Below, one piece after another: positions 1 through 8,034 of a DNA stretch of 8,101 nt. The number at the start of each line of letters is the position of its first letter. Positions within the stretch are counted from its first letter, which is position 1. The position numbers and the translations under genes were made by a program. Source of the stretch: an uncultured Archangium sp. (GTDB taxonomy: Bacteria; Myxococcota; Myxococcia; Myxococcales; Myxococcaceae); NCBI GenBank assembly GCA_946479335.1, contig CAMLFP010000258.1, positions 1-8,101 on the forward strand. Reading direction: 5' to 3'. The notes under the pieces were generated by a model. It searched no databases. It was not told the DNA's origin and saw only the letters and a list, made by a program, of their open reading frames with translations.

Positions 1-908
1 AACGCGTGCGTACTTGCGCTCGCGCTGCTTCTGGCTTTCCGCGGCTTAGCCTCTCCTCGCCGCTGGAGATTCCCGGCGAACTCGAAGAACTCGGCCCGCT
101 CGAGAAGGGCTCGATGGCGCACGAGGTGCAGTTCCAGTTGTTGAGTCAGCTGCGCGCGCAGGGCGTGGTGGTGACGCAGGAGACGCTGACGCAGGTGCAG
201 CTCCAGTTGCACGAGGTGGTGAAGGACGTCGCGGCGAGCGTGTACGACGAGTTCAAGCCGGCCATCGAGCGCGTCTGGCAAGACGGCGTGCACACGTTGG
301 AGGCCGACTTGCGCGAGTGGTTGAAGCGCGTCGCCGACGAGCACGACTGGAAGCCCGCGCACTTCGAATTGTCGTTCGGCTTGCCCGGCCGCGACGTCGA
401 CAGTCAGGACCCGCGCAGCACGCCCACGCCCGTGAAGCTGGTGGAAGGACTGCAGGTGCGCGGCTCCATCGACCTCGTGGAGAAGTCGAAGTCAGGCGCG
501 CTGCGAGCGACTGACTACAAGACCGGCCGCGCGCGCGCCGAAGAAGGCAACGTCATCGGCGGCGGGCGACACCTGCAGCCGTTGCTCTACGCGCTGGTGC
601 TGGAGCAGTTGTTCCCCGAGGTAAAGGTCGCGGGCGGCCGGCTGTTCTACACGACGCAGGTCGGCGGCTACCGCAGCGTGATGACCGAGCTGAACGCCGC
701 GAGTCGCGAGGAGTTCGGCACCGTCGCGCGCACCATCCGCTCCGCGCTGGAGACGGGCTTCTTCCCCGCGGCGCCTGAAGAGGGCGAGTGCACGTATTGC
801 GACTTCCGCGCGGTGTGCGGCCCGGAAGAGGAGCGCCGGATTCGCCGCACGCGCAAGTCGATGCGCCCGGAGCTCAAAGAACTCAATGACCTGAGGGCGA
901 AGCCGTGA
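1..908 (+). CDS. AddB-like PD-(D/E)XK nuclease with Fe-S cysteines, C-terminal part (5' partial, probable frameshift near the edge)
   Basis: This is the C-terminal nuclease end of a helicase-nuclease subunit of the AddB/RexB type; a full AddB is roughly 1000-1150 residues, so most of the gene lies left of the window. Numbering from the GTG at 6 gives: a GSMAHEV histidine motif (H39), GSIDLVE with D156, DYKTG with D170 and K172 (the (D/E)XK centre), QPLLY (Q191, Y195) and a closing C-x2-C-x5-C set (C262, C265, C271). In AddB those three cysteines plus one cysteine before the nuclease domain bind a 4Fe-4S cluster that holds the nuclease together. The GTG at 6 is not a real start: the frame is open to the edge, and the homologous part begins only around LSLSSPLEIP. 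Before about position 46 the sequence looks coding in a different frame (see findings). The stop overlaps the downstream helicase start by GTGA, indicating one operon and translational coupling. The nuclease assignment is firm; AddB, as against another RecB-like family, is inferred partly from the neighbour. Confidence 0.82.
   Translation, partial: RVRTCARAASGFPRLSLSSPLEIPGELEELGPLEKGSMAHEVQFQLLSQLRAQGVVVTQETLTQVQLQLHEVVKDVAASVYDEFKPAIERVWQDGVHTLEADLREWLKRVADEHDWKPAHFELSFGLPGRDVDSQDPRSTPTPVKLVEGLQVRGSIDLVEKSKSGALRATDYKTGRARAEEGNVIGGGRHLQPLLYALVLEQLFPEVKVAGGRLFYTTQVGGYRSVMTELNAASREEFGTVARTIRSALETGFFPAAPEEGECTYCDFRAVCGPEEERRIRRTRKSMRPELKELNDLRAKP
893..897 (+). promoter_or_regulatory. Ribosome binding site for the helicase gene (GAGGG)
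   Basis: GAGGG lies 7 nt before the GTG at 905, inside the last codons of the upstream nuclease gene. It supports GTG as the helicase start and translation coupled to termination of the upstream frame. Confidence 0.55.
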
Positions 909-3900
909 AGCAGCCAGGGGATTACGAGTCGCGCCGCCGGTTGCTCGAAGAACGCGACACGACCTTCGTCGTCGAAGCGGCGGCGGGCACGGGCAAGACG
1001 ACGGTGCTCGTCGAGCGCATCGTGCGTCTGGTGTCGAGCGGCGCGGCGCGGCTGGAGCAGATCATCTCCGTCACCTTCACTGAGAAGGCCGCGGGCGAGA
1101 TGAAGCTGCGCCTGCGTACGCGGCTGGAGCGCGCGCGCGTCGAGGCGAGCAACGCCGAAGAGTCGGCGCGGTTGACGGCGGCGCTGGAGGAACTCGAGGT
1201 CGCGCGCATCGGCACCATTCACGGCCTGTGCGGCGACCTGCTGCGCGAGTACCCGGTGGAGGCGCGCGTCGACCCGCTCTTCGACGTCGCGGCCGAAGGT
1301 GACGCCGACGCGCTGTTGTCGAACGCGTTCCACCGCAAGTTCCAGGAGTTGCTGCAGACGCAGCCTGAAGGTGTGCGGCGTGCGTTGCGGCGGCGCACGA
1401 AGTTCAACGACGAACCTCCGCGTCGGCAGCTCTACGCGGCGGTGCAGTCGTTGGTCGAACATCGTGACTTCGCGGCTCCGTGGCGGCGTGAGCCCTTCAA
1501 TCGCGAAGAAGAACTCGACGCGCTGTTGCCCGTGCTGGAGCAGTTCGCGTCGCGGCTGCCGAACATGAAGCGCAAACGCGACTCGGTGAAGTTCATCGAC
1601 CTCGCGGAGCGCGTGCAGCGGTTCCTCGATGAAGTGAAGCACCGCGAGTCGGTTTCTTCTCGCGACTACGACGGTCTGGAGGCGTTGCTGCGCGAACTCG
1701 GCGGCGATCGCTACTTCTGGGAGACGAAAGCGTGGGGCGCGTCGTTCACCGGCGTCACCGAAGCGCAGGTGCTCAAAGAGCGCGACGCCGCGTGGGATGC
1801 GCTGCGCGCCTTCAATCGCGCGGCCGATGCCGACCTCGCGGCGCGGCTCCACGAAGAGCTGCGGCCGGTCGTCGACGAGTACGAGCGTGAGAAGAAGCGT
1901 GCGGGTGTGCTGGATTTTGTCGACCTGCTGCTGCTGACGCGCGATCTGCTCCAGAACAACGAAGCGGTGCGCCGCTCACTGCAGCAGCGCTTCACGCGCA
2001 TCTTCGTCGATGAGTTTCAAGACACCGACCCGCTGCAGAGCGAGATCGTGCTGCTGCTGTCGTCGGAAGATCCGCGCGAGAGCCGGCCGTTCTCCACGCG
2101 CGCGGTGCCGGGGAAGTTGTTCGTCGTCGGCGACCCGAAGCAGAGCATCTACCGTTTCCGCCGCGCCGACATCCTCCTGTACCAGCGCGTGAAGGAGCAC
2201 CTCGTCGCGCAGGGCGCGTCGGTGGTCTACCTCTCGACGTCGTTCCGCAGCACGCCCGGCATCCAGGCCGCGGTGAACGGCGCGTTCGAGACCGCGATGC
2301 AGGGTGAACACCAGGCGACGTGGGTGCCGCTCGGCGAGTGGAGAGAGGCCAACAAGAAGCAGCCGTCGGTCATCGCGCTCCCCGCGCCGCGGCCGTTCGG
2401 CAACAACGGGCGGCCTACGAAGTCGGCCATCGAAGAGAGCCTCCCGCAGGCGGTGGGCGCGTTCATCGACTGGCTGGTGACGAAGAGCGGTTGGACCGTG
2501 GAAGAGGAGGGCAAGCCGGTGCCGATCCAGCCGCGGCACGTGTGCATCCTCTTCAAGCGGCTGCGGCGCTGGGGCGGCGTCGATGTGCCGCGCCCGTACG
2601 CGCAGGCGCTCGAAGCGCGTCGCGTGCCGCACGTGCTGGTCGGTGGGCGTTCGTTTCATCTCCGCGAAGAGGTGATGGCGCTGCGCACCGCGCTCTTCGC
2701 CGTCGAGCGCCCTGATGACGAGTACAGCGTCTACGCGACGCTGCGCGGGCCGTTCTTCGCCTTCACCGATGAGCAGTTGTTCGCCTTCAAGGAAGCGCGC
2801 GGAAAGCTGCACCCGCTGCGCCCGTGGGAAGACGTCGACCTCAACGACGCCGAGCGCGAGGTGGTGAGCGCGCTGAGCGTGCTCGGGCACCTGCATCGCT
2901 ACCGCAATCGCCGGCCGGTCTCCGCGACGGTGCATGAGTTCCTCGAGAAGACGCGCGCGCACGCCGGCGTCGCGTTCTGGACCGCGGGCGCGCAGGCGTT
3001 GGCCAACGTGCTGCAACTGGCGGAGCTGACGCGCGGGTACGAGCGCCGGGCCACTTCGTTCCGCGACGTCATCGAAGCGCTGCAAGACGAGGCCGATGAA
3101 GGCGAAGCGCCCGAAGCGCCGCTGGTCGAGGAGGGCACCGAAGGCGTGCGCATGATGACGGTGCACGCCGCGAAGGGCCTCGAGTTCCCCGTCGTCATCC
3201 TCGCCGAGCCGACGGCCAATGCCTCGCGCCCCGAGCCTTCGCATTGGGTCGATGCCGACAAAGGGCTGTGGGTGCACGCGCTCGCCGGCTGCGTGCCGGT
3301 GGAGCTGCGCGAACACGAAGACGAGGTGAAGCAGCGCGACGCCGAGGAGACGCTGCGGCTCACCTACGTCGCCGCCACGCGCGCGCGCGACGTGTTGGTG
3401 ATCCCCGTGTGCAGCGAGCGCCAACAGCAAGACACGTGGACCGAGGTGCTCTACCGCTCGGTGTACCCGCAGCTCGGCTTCGAGCACGACCCGAAGCCCG
3501 CGCCCGGGTGCCCGGAGTTCAAGTACGACCCCATCCTCGATCGCGATGGGCCGGTGCCCAACGAGGTGCCGCAGCCCGGGTTGCACCTCTCGCAGTCGCG
3601 CCGCAACCGCGTGGTGTGGTGGGACGCCAACGTGCTCCAGCTCAAGCAGGAGGAGCCCGCGGGCCTCGAGTCGTCGGAGGCGTTGAGCGAAGACGGCGAC
3701 GCCGCGCCGAAGAGCATCGCCGCCTGGGAGCGCTGGGCAGCGCAGCGCGCGGAAGCGCAGGCTGAGGGCTCCGTGCCCACCATGCGCGTGAAGGTCGCGC
3801 GTGAGCTCGAGCCGGTCGCCGCCACGGGCACCATGCCGCTCGAGAAGACCAGCGCGCCGCGGCAGGGCAGGCCCGCCGGCCGTCGCTTCGGTGAATTCGT

Positions 3901-4303
3901 CCACGCGGTGCTGGCGGTGATTCCGCTCGACGCGACGCGAGACACCATCGCCGCGACCGCTGCCATCTTCGCCCGCCAACTGGGTGCGACGCCGCGAGAG
4001 ACCGACGCGTGCATCGAAGCGGTGGAGGCTGCGTTGTCGCACCCGCGCCTCGTCGCCGCGCGCAGCTCGCCCGACGTTCGCCGCGAGGTGGCCATCGTCG
4101 ACTTCCTCGATGACGGCACCATCGTCGAAGGCGTGGTGGATCTCGCCTACGAGCTCGACGGCGTGTGGTGGGTGGTGGAGTTCAAGACCGACGCCGCCAT
4201 CGCCGAGTCACTCTCGCAATACGAAGCGCAGACTCAGGCGTACGTGCGGGCCATCACCGCGGCCACCGGGAAGGTGGCGCGCGGGGTGTTGCTCAACGTG
4301 TGA
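905..4303 (+). CDS. addA: AddA-like UvrD/Rep-family (SF1A) helicase-nuclease subunit
   Basis: This 1132-residue ATP-dependent 3'-5' DNA helicase carries a C-terminal PD-(D/E)XK nuclease and would unwind and trim double-strand ends for RecA loading. SF1A motifs are in order: Walker A AAAGTGKT (25-32), motif Ia VTFTEKAAGEMK (56-67), Walker B VDEFQDTD (368-375), motif III GDPKQSIYRFRRAD (409-422), motif IV STSFRST (444-450), motif V MMTVHAAKGLEFP (750-762) and motif VI LTYVAATRAR (819-828). A variable, partly acidic linker (about 910-990) leads to the nuclease: GRRFGEFVHAVL (H1000), EGVVDL (D1079), VVEFKTD (E1092, K1094) and QTQAY (Q1109, Y1113). It is somewhat shorter than Bacillus AddA (about 1230). 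The GTG start is supported by GAGGG at 893-897, 7 nt upstream, and by the short distance to Walker A usual in the family. It overlaps the upstream nuclease gene by 4 bp, in the addB-addA order known from Bacillus. All catalytic motifs look intact. AdnAB-type or other UvrD-like complexes are the alternative. Confidence 0.87.
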   Translation: MKQPGDYESRRRLLEERDTTFVVEAAAGTGKTTVLVERIVRLVSSGAARLEQIISVTFTEKAAGEMKLRLRTRLERARVEASNAEESARLTAALEELEVARIGTIHGLCGDLLREYPVEARVDPLFDVAAEGDADALLSNAFHRKFQELLQTQPEGVRRALRRRTKFNDEPPRRQLYAAVQSLVEHRDFAAPWRREPFNREEELDALLPVLEQFASRLPNMKRKRDSVKFIDLAERVQRFLDEVKHRESVSSRDYDGLEALLRELGGDRYFWETKAWGASFTGVTEAQVLKERDAAWDALRAFNRAADADLAARLHEELRPVVDEYEREKKRAGVLDFVDLLLLTRDLLQNNEAVRRSLQQRFTRIFVDEFQDTDPLQSEIVLLLSSEDPRESRPFSTRAVPGKLFVVGDPKQSIYRFRRADILLYQRVKEHLVAQGASVVYLSTSFRSTPGIQAAVNGAFETAMQGEHQATWVPLGEWREANKKQPSVIALPAPRPFGNNGRPTKSAIEESLPQAVGAFIDWLVTKSGWTVEEEGKPVPIQPRHVCILFKRLRRWGGVDVPRPYAQALEARRVPHVLVGGRSFHLREEVMALRTALFAVERPDDEYSVYATLRGPFFAFTDEQLFAFKEARGKLHPLRPWEDVDLNDAEREVVSALSVLGHLHRYRNRRPVSATVHEFLEKTRAHAGVAFWTAGAQALANVLQLAELTRGYERRATSFRDVIEALQDEADEGEAPEAPLVEEGTEGVRMMTVHAAKGLEFPVVILAEPTANASRPEPSHWVDADKGLWVHALAGCVPVELREHEDEVKQRDAEETLRLTYVAATRARDVLVIPVCSERQQQDTWTEVLYRSVYPQLGFEHDPKPAPGCPEFKYDPILDRDGPVPNEVPQPGLHLSQSRRNRVVWWDANVLQLKQEEPAGLESSEALSEDGDAAPKSIAAWERWAAQRAEAQAEGSVPTMRVKVARELEPVAATGTMPLEKTSAPRQGRPAGRRFGEFVHAVLAVIPLDATRDTIAATAAIFARQLGATPRETDACIEAVEAALSHPRLVAARSSPDVRREVAIVDFLDDGTIVEGVVDLAYELDGVWWVVEFKTDAAIAESLSQYEAQTQAYVRAITAATGKVARGVLLNV

Positions 4304-4855
4304 TTACGGCGCGCGCTGCCAGTCGGTCTTGATGCGCGCTCCGGTGACCGCGAGGTCGGTGAGCGAACATGCGATGTCGGAGTCGGTCGGGCAGCCGGTG
4401 CCTTCGCACTTGGTGCTCGCGCTGATGCTCGCGGTGCCGGTGAGCGGCCCGCCTCCGCGAGGGAAGGTGATGGTTGCCGAGCTCGACACCGTGGTGGTGA
4501 GGGTGCCCGCGCCGTTGGTCGTCTTGCGCTGCGCCGCGGTGGTGAAGGCCGTGCCCTTGCCGTCGGGCTTCGCGCCGTCGAAGACGCCGCCGACGTACAC
4601 CGCGCCCGCCTCGCCCAGCGTGTACTGCGCGTCGCCCTCGGTGACCGTCAGGTACGACGTCGCGTCAGGGCCATCGAAGACCTGCACCTGCACCAGCACG
4701 GAGGGGATCTCCGGGTGCGTGGTGTTCGGCTCGTTGCCCGTGCGGTAGCAGCTGTCGGGCGCGTCCTTCAGCTGGATGACGAGATTGTACAGCTCGGGTT
4801 CGACGCCACCGCACGCGGTGAGAGACAACGCCAACAGCGAGACGAGCTTCTTCAT
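4304..4855 (-). CDS. Small lipoprotein of unknown function
   Basis: This 183-residue protein has a textbook type II signal peptide: MKK, a hydrophobic stretch (residues 4-12), then the lipobox LTAC with the lipidated cysteine at 15. Gly follows the cysteine, so there is no Asp+2 inner-membrane retention signal, and outer-membrane placement is likely by the E. coli rule. The mature part is rich in Thr, Ser, Gly and Val (for example around 113-145) and looks like an all-beta extracytoplasmic domain. It has four further cysteines (36, 150, 155, 163) that could form two disulfides. No known domain is recognised. The ATG start has AAGGAG at 4860-4865, 4 nt away. A possible promoter overlaps the end of the response-regulator gene upstream on the same strand. 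The stop (TAA) abuts the addA stop with no base between. Lineage-restricted myxobacterial lipoproteins often look like this, but no function can be assigned. Confidence 0.8.
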   Translation of the reverse strand: MKKLVSLLALSLTACGGVEPELYNLVIQLKDAPDSCYRTGNEPNTTHPEIPSVLVQVQVFDGPDATSYLTVTEGDAQYTLGEAGAVYVGGVFDGAKPDGKGTAFTTAAQRKTTNGAGTLTTTVSSSATITFPRGGGPLTGTASISASTKCEGTGCPTDSDIACSLTDLAVTGARIKTDWQRAP

Positions 4856-4888: not shown

Positions 4889-4916
4889 ACCCTAGGAGCG
4901 GCCACGGAGATTTCAA
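4889..4916 (-). promoter_or_regulatory. Candidate sigma-70-type promoter for the lipoprotein gene
   Basis: On the minus strand TTGAAA (4911-4916, 5 of 6 to TTGACA) is followed by a 16-nt spacer and TAGGGT (4889-4894, only 3 of 6 to TATAAT). The -35 box overlaps the stop codon of the response-regulator gene (4913-4915). A start near 4881 would leave a short leader containing the AAGGAG site. The poor -10 match makes this tentative. Confidence 0.3.
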
Positions 4917-6286
4917 ATATCCTTGAGGGCGGCCTCGACCTCGGCCGGGCCGTAGGTCTCGAGCTTGCGGTACAGCGTCTTGCGATCGAGCCCGAGGATC
5001 TTCGCGCACTGCGTACGGTGGCCCTTCACCGCGCGCAGCACCCGCAAGATGTGCTGCTTCTCGATGAGGTCCATCGGCACGAGGATGGACTCGTCCGACT
5101 CCGCGGCGCTGGTCGCCGGCGTCGGCAGCTGCACCTTCTCAGGCAGGTCGGCCGCGGTGAGCTGCTCGTACTGCGCGACGGCCACCGCGCGCTCGATGAC
5201 GTTGCGCAGCTCGGTGACGTTGCCCGGCCACGAGTACGCGACCAGCTTCTCCGCCGCGTTCGAGGCGAGGCCCGTGACCTTCTTCTTGCTCTTCTCGGCG
5301 AAGGTCCGCACGAAGTGCTGCGCCAGCAGCAGCACGTCGTTGCCGCGCATGCGCACCGGCGGCACGTGCACGTTCACCACGTTGAGCGCGAAGTGCAGCT
5401 CGGGGCGGAAGGTGCCGTCGTCGACCAGCGTCTGGAGGTCCTTCGTCGTGGCGCTCACCACCCGCGCATCGAAGGCCACCTCGTTGGCGCCGCCCACCGG
5501 CTTCACCTTGCGGTCGAGCAACGCCTTGAGCAGCTTGGCCTGGAGCTCCGCGGGCACCTCGTCGACGTCGTCGAGGAACACCGTGCCGCCGGCCGCGCGC
5601 ACGAAGGCGCCGGGCTGTGCGCGGTCGCTCCCCGTGCCCCTGGCGAAGCCGAACAGCTCGCCTTCCAGCACCGCCGCGGGCACGCCCGCGCAGCTGATGG
5701 AGATGAACAGCCCATTGCGCCGCTTGCTCGCGTCGTGGATGGCGCGCGCCACCATCGCCTTGCCGGTGCCGCTCTCGCCGGAGACCAGCACCGCCGACTC
5801 GGTCGCGGCCACGCGGTTCACCAGCGCCACGGTCTCGTGCATCGCCGGGCTCTCACCCAGCAGCGGCGAGGTGCCCTTCTTGCTCGTCACCTCTTCACGG
5901 AGGCGCTTCACCTCTTCGCGCAGCGCCTCGTGCTGCACGGCGCGCTTCACCGCGAGGCCGATGGCCTCCATCTCGAAGGGCTTGTTGAGGAAGTCGTAGG
6001 CCCCGACGCGCATCGCGCGGATGGCGCTCTCCATGTTGCCGAAGGCGGTGATGACCAGCACCGGCATGTTCGGGTGCGCGGCGGTGATGCGCTCGCACAG
6101 CTCGAGGCCGTTCATGCCCTTCATGTTGATGTCGGTGATGACAGCGTGGAAGTCATGCTCCTTGAGCGCTACCAGCGCCGACTCGCCACCATGCACGGCC
6201 TTCGCGCTGAAGCCCTTGCGCTGAAGCCCCTCCACCAACAGCTGCGCCATCGCGACATCGTCTTCGACAATCAAGACCTGGTTCAT
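4913..6286 (-). CDS. NtrC-family response regulator with degenerate AAA+ domain (REC-AAA+-Fis HTH), probably not a sigma-54 activator
   Basis: This 457-residue protein has three domains. The receiver (1-120) is intact: D9 and D10, phosphoacceptor D52 (ITDINMKG), T80 and K102. The AAA+ domain (about 140-385) keeps Walker A GESGTGKA (170-177). However, the GAFTGA loop that contacts sigma-54 is reduced to GTGS (217-220) with no AF, Walker B reads LDD instead of LDE (D240), the second arginine-finger position is A300, and the sensor II arginine in WPGNVREL is T358. The C-terminal Fis-type HTH (about 407-446, ending in RKTLYRKLETYG) looks complete. It is therefore probably a phosphorylation-controlled DNA-binding regulator acting without sigma-54 remodelling, as known for other NtrC-like proteins lacking GAFTGA. 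The ATG at 6286 is chosen over an upstream in-frame start at 6376 because it begins exactly at the receiver (MNQVLIVEDD) and has GAGGAG 9 nt upstream. No histidine kinase lies nearby, so its partner and targets are unknown. Confidence 0.9.
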   Translation of the reverse strand: MNQVLIVEDDVAMAQLLVEGLQRKGFSAKAVHGGESALVALKEHDFHAVITDINMKGMNGLELCERITAAHPNMPVLVITAFGNMESAIRAMRVGAYDFLNKPFEMEAIGLAVKRAVQHEALREEVKRLREEVTSKKGTSPLLGESPAMHETVALVNRVAATESAVLVSGESGTGKAMVARAIHDASKRRNGLFISISCAGVPAAVLEGELFGFARGTGSDRAQPGAFVRAAGGTVFLDDVDEVPAELQAKLLKALLDRKVKPVGGANEVAFDARVVSATTKDLQTLVDDGTFRPELHFALNVVNVHVPPVRMRGNDVLLLAQHFVRTFAEKSKKKVTGLASNAAEKLVAYSWPGNVTELRNVIERAVAVAQYEQLTAADLPEKVQLPTPATSAAESDESILVPMDLIEKQHILRVLRAVKGHRTQCAKILGLDRKTLYRKLETYGPAEVEAALKDI

Positions 6287-6295
6287 TGCGTGCGT

Positions 6296-6301
6296 CTCCT
6301 C
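6296..6301 (-). promoter_or_regulatory. Ribosome binding site deciding the response-regulator start (GAGGAG)
   Basis: GAGGAG on the minus strand is separated by 9 nt from the ATG at 6286. Together with the receiver domain beginning at that ATG, it rules out the longer in-frame start at 6376. Confidence 0.65.
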
Positions 6302-6351
6302 GCGGGGGAAAACAGCAAGAACCGTACCCGTGATTCCGGTGGCGAACGCAC

Positions 6352-6382
6352 CGCGGGGCGTGTCGTCCTGACACACCCCGCG
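6352..6382 (-). terminator. Strong stem-loop after hsp20, probable terminator
   Basis: Left arm 6352-6364 and right arm 6370-6382 pair over 13 bp around a 5-nt loop. The only imperfection (6359/6375) is a G-U wobble in minus-strand RNA but a C-A mismatch in plus-strand RNA, which favours function on the minus strand. It starts 27 nt after the hsp20 stop and lies in front of the response-regulator gene. No U-tract follows the stem, so it is not a classic intrinsic terminator. It could instead stabilise the hsp20 mRNA end or serve as a protein-binding site. Confidence 0.5.
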
Positions 6383-6409
6383 AAAATTCGACGCACTTTC
6401 AGGCGTTGA

Positions 6410-6826
6410 TCAGGCTTCGACCTTCACCTTGAGCGAGCGCGGCTGCGTCTCTTCACGCTTGGGGATGCTGACCGTCAGCACGCCGTGCTTGAAGGTCGCC
6501 TGCGGCGCGCTGCCGTCGAGCGAGTCGTCGAGCGTGAAGCTGCGGAGGAACTCGCCGGTGGTGCGCTCACGGCGGATCCACCCCTTGTCGTCGGTGGTCT
6601 TCTCCTCGTGGCGCTCGGCGCGGATGGTGAGCGTCTTGCCTTCGAGCTTCACGTCGATGGCCTCCGGGTTGACGCCGGGGAGGTCGAGGCGCAGCTCGAC
6701 GGCCTTGTCGGTCTCACGCACGTCGGCGGCGGGGCGCACGGCGGCGTCGTCCTTCGTGGGCACGGTGAAGAGTTCGTCGAAGTCACGGAAGGCAAAGCGG
6801 GGGTTGAAAGCGAAGCGGGTCAGCAT
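6410..6826 (-). CDS. Hsp20/alpha-crystallin family small heat-shock protein
   Basis: This 138-residue ATP-independent cytoplasmic holdase would bind unfolding proteins under stress. A short N-terminal arm (about 1-31) rich in Phe and Arg (FAFNPRFAFRDFDELF) precedes the alpha-crystallin domain (about 32-125), recognisable by VELRLDLPGVNPEAIDVKLE, LTIRAERHEE, the FLRSFTLDDSLD segment and the hallmark A/G-x-x-x-x-G-V-L strand KHGVLTVSIPK (113-123). The C-terminal tail has a VKV motif (134-136) in the place of the I-x-I/V oligomerisation anchor. The length is typical of bacterial class A sHsps. The ATG at 6826 is chosen because AAGGAG lies 8 nt upstream and the family N-terminus starts there. The longer frame to 6967 would run over the intergenic region and into the divergent regulator's start. 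A stem-loop follows the stop. The XRE-cupin gene is divergent, so shared control is possible. Confidence 0.93.
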   Translation of the reverse strand: MLTRFAFNPRFAFRDFDELFTVPTKDDAAVRPAADVRETDKAVELRLDLPGVNPEAIDVKLEGKTLTIRAERHEEKTTDDKGWIRRERTTGEFLRSFTLDDSLDGSAPQATFKHGVLTVSIPKREETQPRSLKVKVEA

Positions 6827-6834
6827 GGTGTGTT

Positions 6835-6868: not shown

Positions 6869-6897
6869 GAACGTCAGACAGAAACCGTGGGTGTCAA
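6869..6897 (-). promoter_or_regulatory. Candidate hsp20 promoter with perfect TTGACA -35 box
   Basis: Minus-strand TTGACA (6892-6897) is followed by a 17-nt spacer and ACGTTC (6869-6874), a poor -10. The -35 match and the position 43 nt before the hsp20 start suggest a promoter, but the -10 does not support ordinary sigma-70. The CTTGACA segment also resembles the heat-shock sigma -35, yet no CCCCAT-like -10 sits at the right distance. Confidence 0.3.
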
Positions 6898-7563: not shown

Positions 7564-8034
7564 CTATTTCTTCGCGCGCTCGAGGATCTCGACGTCGAGG
7601 AGATCTTTCGGCCGCGCCGCTGCGCGCTTGTTCTTGATCAGCGCCTCGCGCCCCAGGAATGGCACGGGCACCCCGTTGACCTCGAGGACCACGCGGCCCG
7701 GCCACGCCTCGTCGAACGTGATGCCGCTGAGCTGCGTGATGATGTCGATGCGGCCTGGAGCGACTCCCATCTGGTACACGCTCCCGAGCTTCGCGAAGTC
7801 TGCGGGCGTGACGTTGAACGCTGAGAGTGGCGCGCCGAAGCGGAGAAGCGCGCGGTGAACGCGTACCGCGTTTTCCTCCGACGCGCGGACCCACACGTCG
7901 AGATCGCCGGTCGCGCGAGGCGTGACGTGCACACCGACAGCGTACGCGCCGACGATGATGAACTCCGCTCCCTCGAGGTGGAGGCTCGACACGATGTCGA
8001 AGAAGTCGCCCTTGAGGCGCTCTTCGAAGCTCAT
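7564..8034 (-). CDS. Small nucleotidyltransferase-fold protein (AbiEii/DUF6036-like)
   Basis: This 156-residue single-domain protein has the DNA polymerase-beta-type nucleotidyltransferase pattern: FIIVGAYAVGVHVTPRATGDLDVWV (25-49, given here by its key residues G29, A30, R40, T42, D44, D46) and a third acidic residue D97 in GRIDIIT. Two Asp in the D-x-D pair plus the later Asp are the expected metal ligands, so it may be catalytically competent. The C-terminus (EALIKNKRAAARPKDLLDVE) is shared with AbiEii-like and stand-alone bacterial members. The substrate is unknown; relatives modify tRNA, proteins or small molecules, and some are toxin or antitoxin parts. The ATG start overlaps the end of an upstream minus-strand gene as ATGA. 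The nearest Shine-Dalgarno (GGGGAG, 8037-8042) is only 2 nt away, so initiation probably relies on coupling. The stop codon (TAG) abuts that of the XRE-cupin gene with no gap. Confidence 0.82.
   Translation of the reverse strand: MSFEERLKGDFFDIVSSLHLEGAEFIIVGAYAVGVHVTPRATGDLDVWVRASEENAVRVHRALLRFGAPLSAFNVTPADFAKLGSVYQMGVAPGRIDIITQLSGITFDEAWPGRVVLEVNGVPVPFLGREALIKNKRAAARPKDLLDVEILERAKK

Follow-up and report, generated by a model that had tools for sequence, protein, structure and literature searches.

A clade of NtrC-type response regulators from Archangium-like myxobacteria that lacks the GAFTGA loop and shows repeated replacement of AAA+ motor residues

Introduction

NtrC-type (group I) bacterial enhancer-binding proteins (bEBPs) have as their hallmark a GAFTGA-type loop 1 in the AAA+ domain, and the Phe and Thr of this loop are sigma-54 contacts. 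About 110 bEBP homologues with minor GAFTGA defects have been reported, and HupR, TyrR, and DhaR are described as sigma-70 dependent (PMC3162934). The NtrC of Caulobacter crescentus, which has no GAFTGA, is reported to act at sigma-70 promoters and to need its Walker residues (PMC10274813); for Rhodobacter capsulatus NtrC, ATP binding is said to be essential and hydrolysis not (as cited in PMC10274813). Some deviant GAFTGA motifs may still function (PMC4641369), and mutants of the GAFTGA-less Caulobacter NtrC are described as raising some sigma-54-dependent flagellar genes (PMC12421884). In the motor itself, the Walker B Glu (E108 of PspF, E239 of NtrC1) is reported to be the gamma-phosphate sensor, an asparagine connects it to loops L1 and L2, and R168 of PspF (R299 of NtrC1) contacts the gamma-phosphate in trans and helps keep loop 1 raised (PMC7175178). 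Here we describe a degenerate NtrC-family response regulator encoded in a stretch of 8,101 nucleotides from an uncultured Archangium sp. (contig CAMLFP010000258.1), which we call the window.

Results

A canonical domain order around a loop without GAFTGA

The regulator gene occupies 4913..6286 of the minus strand, on which all of the features below lie unless stated, and encodes 457 residues; its start, a Met at 6286, agrees in the alignment with the starts of its relatives. Pfam matches identified a receiver domain at residues 3-113 (5948..6280, PF00072), an AAA+ sigma-54-interaction domain at residues 142-307 (5366..5863, PF00158, 171.6 bits), and, after the lid, a highly conserved Fis-type HTH at residues 405-446 (4949..5074, PF02954). 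This is the domain order of NtrC-type (group I) bEBPs, as a sequence-only reading of the window had claimed, and minus the GAFTGA loop it is that of the Caulobacter/Rhodobacter NtrC and HupR kind. The receiver of the window protein carries the full response-regulator set, namely the acidic pocket D9/D10, the phospho-acceptor D52 (6131-6133), T80, and K102.

The same reading had placed a segment without GAFTGA at residues 210-228. That placement proved exact: loop 1 runs from 5659 down to 5603 (5603..5659, minus strand), reads ELFGFARGTGSDRAQPGAF, and does not contain the motif. As canonical stand-ins we aligned NtrC1 and ZraR, whose loops are ELFGYEKGAFTGAVSSKEGFF and ELFGHEKGAFTGADKRREGRF, respectively, while PspF was brought in via its published residue numbers only. 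Aligned with NtrC1 and ZraR, the window loop has neither the F nor the T of the motif and falls two residues short, measuring 19 aa instead of 21 when length is counted from ELFG to the Phe following the invariant Gly. The loss of GAFTGA thus stands as first read, while the accompanying letter account (A and F missing, GA changed to GS) represents just one of the possible alignments. We also considered PGAFVRA, just downstream, as a displaced GAFTGA and rejected it upon alignment with relatives, because its Gly occupies the column of the invariant Gly that these proteins have at the C-terminal base of loop 1.

The motif is missing from a whole clade

A protein search found 7701 homologues, of which we took the best 120. 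GAFT[DG]A was missing in 45 of these and present in 75. The 45 proteins without it are 57-98% identical to the window protein, and the 75 carriers consist of seven proteins at 55-60% identity (P0039, P0040, P0042, P0043, P0045, P0048, and P0052) and all 68 from P0053 on. We then built a main tree of 99 rows, comprising the query, 60 of the 120 listed homologues, and 38 proteins from loci. The loop columns were left out of this tree, and the 51 rows without the loop motif all fell into one clade (SH-aLRT 96), in which four locus-derived rows are identical to P rows, leaving 47 distinct sequences. A second tree, with both loop and catalytic columns removed and with L164, L174, P0004, P0015, and P0016 left out, held 48 clade and 46 other rows; it supported the clade at 100/97 and the clade together with six GAFTDA sister proteins at 100/100. 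By source names and one contig title, members belong to Archangium or Myxococcota assemblies; the clade is myxobacterial and Archangium-like, and in a scan of genome contigs one clade member was among the best 80 loci.

Within the loop, GAF[TS] occurs in 0/51 clade rows (47 distinct, window included) vs 48/48 other rows. We looked for the case, set beforehand, of orthologues with an intact motif and the window strain alone deviating, and found the whole clade without GAF[TS]; the claim that the loss evolved and is no sequencing error is upheld by these counts. The exact two-residue deletion, in contrast, is not common to the orthologues. Loop length varies from 12 to 22 aa across the clade, while it is 21 in 48/48 other rows, and only one further clade row has the 19-aa loop of the window. 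The nearest relative, P0001, is 98% identical and has a full-length, 21-aa loop reading GAAPSD, which implies that the shortening in the window is recent; four of the nine residue differences between the two proteins at aligned positions fall within residues 216-222. The Phe and Thr that touch sigma-54, by contrast, are missing throughout the clade.

Motor residues are replaced repeatedly, receiver and HTH residues are not

What the sequence-only reading overlooked is the degradation of the motor, at residues 240, 300, 358, and 198, and the missing adjacent kinase gene; its central inference, sigma-54 independence with receiver and HTH intact, agrees with the findings. In the window protein, the Walker B pair D239-E240 (5567..5572) is D-D, with Glu240 replaced by Asp. 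R300, the second arginine finger (NtrC1 R299, PspF R168), is Ala (5387..5389), the switch asparagine N198 is Ser (5693..5695), and R358 is Thr (5213..5215), a position that we take from our alignment to be the sensor II Arg. From the set of Walker A, the Walker B D-E, two arginine fingers, and the sensor II Arg, the window protein keeps only Walker A (5756-5779) and the first arginine finger, R294 (5405-5407).

These replacements are widespread in the clade. E240 is missing in 28/51 clade rows, R300 in 25/51, R358 in 26/51, the Walker A Lys in 4/51, and the first arginine finger in 3/51, each vs 0/48 others; on the tree they require 5, 6, 6, 2, and 1 changes, respectively, where each figure is the fewest changes of state and does not tell loss from regain. 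By the same count, the switch Asn took 7 changes, being missing in 25/51 clade rows vs 1/48 others, with the change in that other row counted in. The replacements at 240, 300, and 358 are also found in P0001 and P0002, while S198 is common to P0001 only and P0002 retains N. All five scored catalytic residues (K176, E240, R294, R300, R358) are kept in 20/51 clade rows, P0024 for example, none of which has the loop motif, and 0/48 rows with an intact loop lack any of the five. From these distributions it is most likely that the loop went first and the motor after it, several times. At the sensor I column, 281, Asn is present in 10/51 clade rows and 39/48 others, the remaining nine of which have His; we regard this difference as weakly telling.

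The ends of the protein behave differently from the motor. D9, D52, T80, and K102 of the receiver and R435, T437, Y439, R440, and K441 of the HTH are present in 51/51 clade rows, window included, in agreement with the claim that both domains are intact. The predicted model of the window protein (mean pLDDT 86.7, pTM 0.61) retains the AAA+ fold, with target-normalized TM values of 0.87-0.94 to many AAA+ structures of ZraR, NtrC1, FlrC, and FleQ. Its top fold match is full-length NtrX, and the packing of domains in the model is unreliable.

The adjacent kinase gene is gone in the window

An adjacent kinase gene is common for two-component response regulators, though not obligatory. Genomic context was available for five clade loci (L001 and L115-L118), and each has a histidine kinase gene immediately upstream of the regulator. 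Except in L116, this kinase gene is itself preceded by hsp20, beyond which lies an XRE-cupin gene facing away. AddA follows further downstream in four of the five, being ~3 kb on in L118, while the L115 contig ends earlier. The kinase of L115 is an open frame with an H-box recognizable by eye. In the window the order is XRE-cupin, hsp20, regulator, small protein, AddA, and AddB-like, and the kinase is missing. hsp20 (6410..6829, PF00011) is the same-strand upstream neighbor of the regulator there, and the two are separated by a gap of 123 bp (6287..6409) at the place where relatives have the kinase gene. Both genes are full-length at this junction, and when the L001 kinase served as query in a permissive tblastn, no kinase remnant was detected in the window (best E 0.92). 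Among the six loci with context, the window is the sole one without the kinase. For canonical proteins outside the clade, a kinase-like match of >70 bits lies within 9 kb in 30 of 33 cases, though it is not always the adjacent gene.

The gap contains a hairpin with a 13-bp stem (6352-6382, minus strand), perhaps an hsp20 terminator without a T-run, or an operator; folding of the whole gap gave an MFE of -56.3 (z -3.24). Downstream of the regulator, a small gene that looks lipoprotein-like by eye (4304-4855, minus strand) has no Pfam match; its counterparts are only 35-39% identical, yet such a gene lies downstream of the regulator in 5/5 clade loci. TTCTTT(T)GACA occurs upstream of it in four clade loci, but not in the window or L115. 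The AddB-like nuclease and AddA/UvrD-like helicase genes (3-4303, plus strand) have counterparts close to the regulator in several of the clade loci. A 156-aa frame at 7564-8034 (minus strand) has no Pfam match at E 0.001 and resembles a nucleotidyltransferase by eye only.

A probable alternative route of gene control

The loss of the loop, the motor residues, and the adjacent kinase, with receiver and HTH kept, points to another mode of gene control, and the regulator very likely controls its genes by a non-sigma-54 route. We consider it probable that the protein is a sigma-54-independent DNA-binding regulator whose AAA+ domain serves as a non-hydrolyzing scaffold. The intact Walker A and first arginine finger of the window protein are a counterpoint to this reading.

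We asked whether sigma-54 itself is still present. PF04552 (RpoN) gave a single match in each of five clade genomes and in one canonical relative (6/6), so these relatives have not lost sigma-54, and it seems that the regulator alone has left it. The five clade genomes also gave 31-67 PF00158 matches each, a count that is an upper bound for bEBPs, given that the search was also positive in 14/14 control genomes, archaea included. With rpoN and so many PF00158 proteins at hand, an interplay with sigma-54 is possible. Rather than working at sigma-70 promoters, the protein could be a hetero-oligomer or dominant-negative subunit that joins intact bEBP paralogues and in this way affects sigma-54 promoters in trans, and hetero-oligomeric bEBPs have been reported for Myxococcus (Volz 2012).

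A comparison of divergence by domain weighs on the other side. From the clade we used 51 rows, thinned to 30, and for comparison 19 selected canonical rows, thinned to 15; the loop was excluded from AAA+. The mean pairwise differences were 0.360 for AAA+, 0.247 for the receiver, and 0.120 for the HTH in the clade, vs 0.231, 0.300, and 0.234 in the canonical rows. In pairs matched at a receiver difference of 0.20-0.35 (323 clade, 23 canonical), AAA+ differed by 0.391 in the clade vs 0.206 in the canonical rows, and the HTH by 0.134 vs 0.203. The HTH is the least divergent domain within the clade, which points to DNA sites of the regulator's own. The AAA+ domain as a whole is fast-diverging, a poor fit with a conserved partner interface, although surfaces were not separated in this comparison. 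Taken together, we regard a trans-acting subunit as unlikely.

A second alternative is that the gene is decaying, in which case the losses of kinase and motor are steps toward a pseudogene in the window's lineage. That the motor residues and adjacent kinase are gone, and that the window alone of six loci is kinase-less, would fit such a course. Selection does not. By Nei-Gojobori counts against L115, dN/dS for the window gene is 0.40 overall; by domain, the receiver has 0.38, AAA+ 0.47, the lid 0.24, and the HTH 0.14. The overall and HTH values indicate purifying selection, which on these counts is relaxed mainly in the motor. Since the protein is also full-length in the window, P0001, and P0002, and the key receiver and HTH residues are intact in 51/51 rows, we think a pseudogene in the making quite improbable.

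It might also be that sigma-54 polymerase is still activated, via a different loop sequence. Odd loops may work, as a GVATGV protein is predicted for sigma-54 promoters (PMC4641369), and Walker A and the first arginine finger remain in the window protein. For promoter elements we scanned 30 upstream regions, 13 of them canonical, with a -24/-12 consensus. No strict match was found in any of the 30, the 13 canonical regions included, and the scan did not discriminate between the groups; because the canonical regions too are without a match, the absence of a strict site near the operon is uninformative. A looser score detected a weak GG-N10-GC, -24/-12-like element just upstream of the window regulator (6314-6329, minus strand), whose score was reached by 2/100 shuffles; the canonical regions L181 and L180 score as high (0 and 3 of 100 shuffles), and the remaining clade regions score lower. 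Against such activation stand the loose constraint on both the length (12-22 aa) and the letters of the clade loop and the repeated replacement of residues in Walker B, the arginine finger, and sensor II, and we hold continued activation of sigma-54 polymerase to be very improbable.

A separate element, TTGAC-N15-YTGAC, lies upstream of hsp20 at 6870-6897 (minus strand) in the window and also in L001, L115, L117, and L118. It was found in 0/33 other sequences, a contrast to be read with the pattern having been drawn from the five and this hsp20 not being found in the others. It resembles a -35 region of the housekeeping type or an operator made of direct repeats; a link to the regulator is a guess.

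Lastly, a sequencing or assembly error in the loop or at the hsp20-regulator junction, both known from one assembly and the former shortened relative to P0001 only in the window, with 4/9 differences clustered at 216-222, is extremely improbable given that GAFTGA is absent across the clade from loops of many different lengths, that P0001 and P0002 have the same replacements at 240, 300, and 358, and that the hsp20 and regulator genes on either side of the junction are full-length.

Discussion

Our preferred reading is that of a regulator working independently of sigma-54. The proposal that this state evolved is supported by the clade-wide loss of the loop, the degraded motor, and the kept receiver and HTH; from these we infer that the protein is sigma-54 independent, makes no sigma-54 contact, does not hydrolyze ATP, and acts at sigma-70-type promoters. 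In the mechanism we propose, an NtrC-type ancestor would have abandoned sigma-54 activation once, in the ancestor of the Archangium-like clade, while keeping a receiver that can be phosphorylated and an HTH that recognizes specific sequences. The AAA+ domain would persist as a folded, probably nucleotide-binding oligomerization scaffold that no longer couples ATP hydrolysis to the remodeling of sigma-54 polymerase, although some clade members may still hydrolyze ATP. The regulator would most likely bind its sites in dimeric or small oligomeric form and activate or repress housekeeping-sigma promoters, as reported for the GAFTGA-less NtrC of Rhodobacter and Caulobacter. The adjacent kinase gene would then have been lost in the window's lineage, leaving the regulator without a neighboring kinase; it may now receive phosphate from another kinase or from a small phosphodonor, or work unphosphorylated.

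We lean toward seeing the clade as a rewiring series, in which a single loss of the sigma-54 contact was followed by repeated destruction of the AAA+ motor, with receiver and HTH strongly conserved, and then by kinase loss, so that the window would hold an orphan, motorless regulator acting via ordinary promoters in a lineage with rpoN and tens of PF00158 proteins. The clade supplies graded intermediates: members in which the loop is lost with the scored motor residues intact, members in which the motor is broken in various ways, and a locus from which the kinase is gone. With these real homologues, both the order of steps from sigma-54 activator to ordinary regulator and the use of the leftover AAA+ domain are testable. 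There is also a consequence for annotation, as at least six clade members (P0005, P0007, P0024, P0025, P0030, and P0034) are named 'sigma-54-dependent' or 'sigma-54 dependent'.

Loss of GAFTGA is a known kind of change, seen in scattered cases. What appears to be new is graded, repeated decay within one clade with kinase loss at its tip; among the literature matches listed, with subscription papers outside the scope, none describes this clade by its title or the start of its abstract.

Several described proteins are similar in part. HsfA of Myxococcus xanthus is, by description, likewise myxobacterial, NtrC-like, and tied to a heat-shock gene (PMC9109919), a likeness for which we claim no orthology. 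NtrX (5m7n, 5m7o, 5m7p), the top fold match, shares the three domains and, by alignment, a shortened loop 1; unlike the window protein, to which it is ~33% identical, it keeps the second arginine finger and the Walker B D-E. HupR, TyrR, DhaR, VpsR, and YplP are likewise described as bEBP homologues with a defective GAFTGA (PMC3162934), VpsR being otherwise a fold and sequence match of the window protein only. Rhodobacter capsulatus NtrC is, as described, GAFTGA-less like the window protein and itself a sigma-70 activator (PMC10274813); its loop deletion is larger than that of Caulobacter, and it needs phosphorylation. Caulobacter crescentus NtrC has the same receiver-AAA+-HTH order without GAFTGA (PMC10274813, PMC12421884). 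By description it differs in having an eight-residue loop deletion and in needing its Walker A and B residues, whereas in the window the Walker B Glu, an arginine finger, and the sensor II Arg are replaced and the adjacent kinase gene is gone. By analogy with these two systems, the window regulator is best read as resembling the NtrC of Rhodobacter or Caulobacter in a further decayed form.
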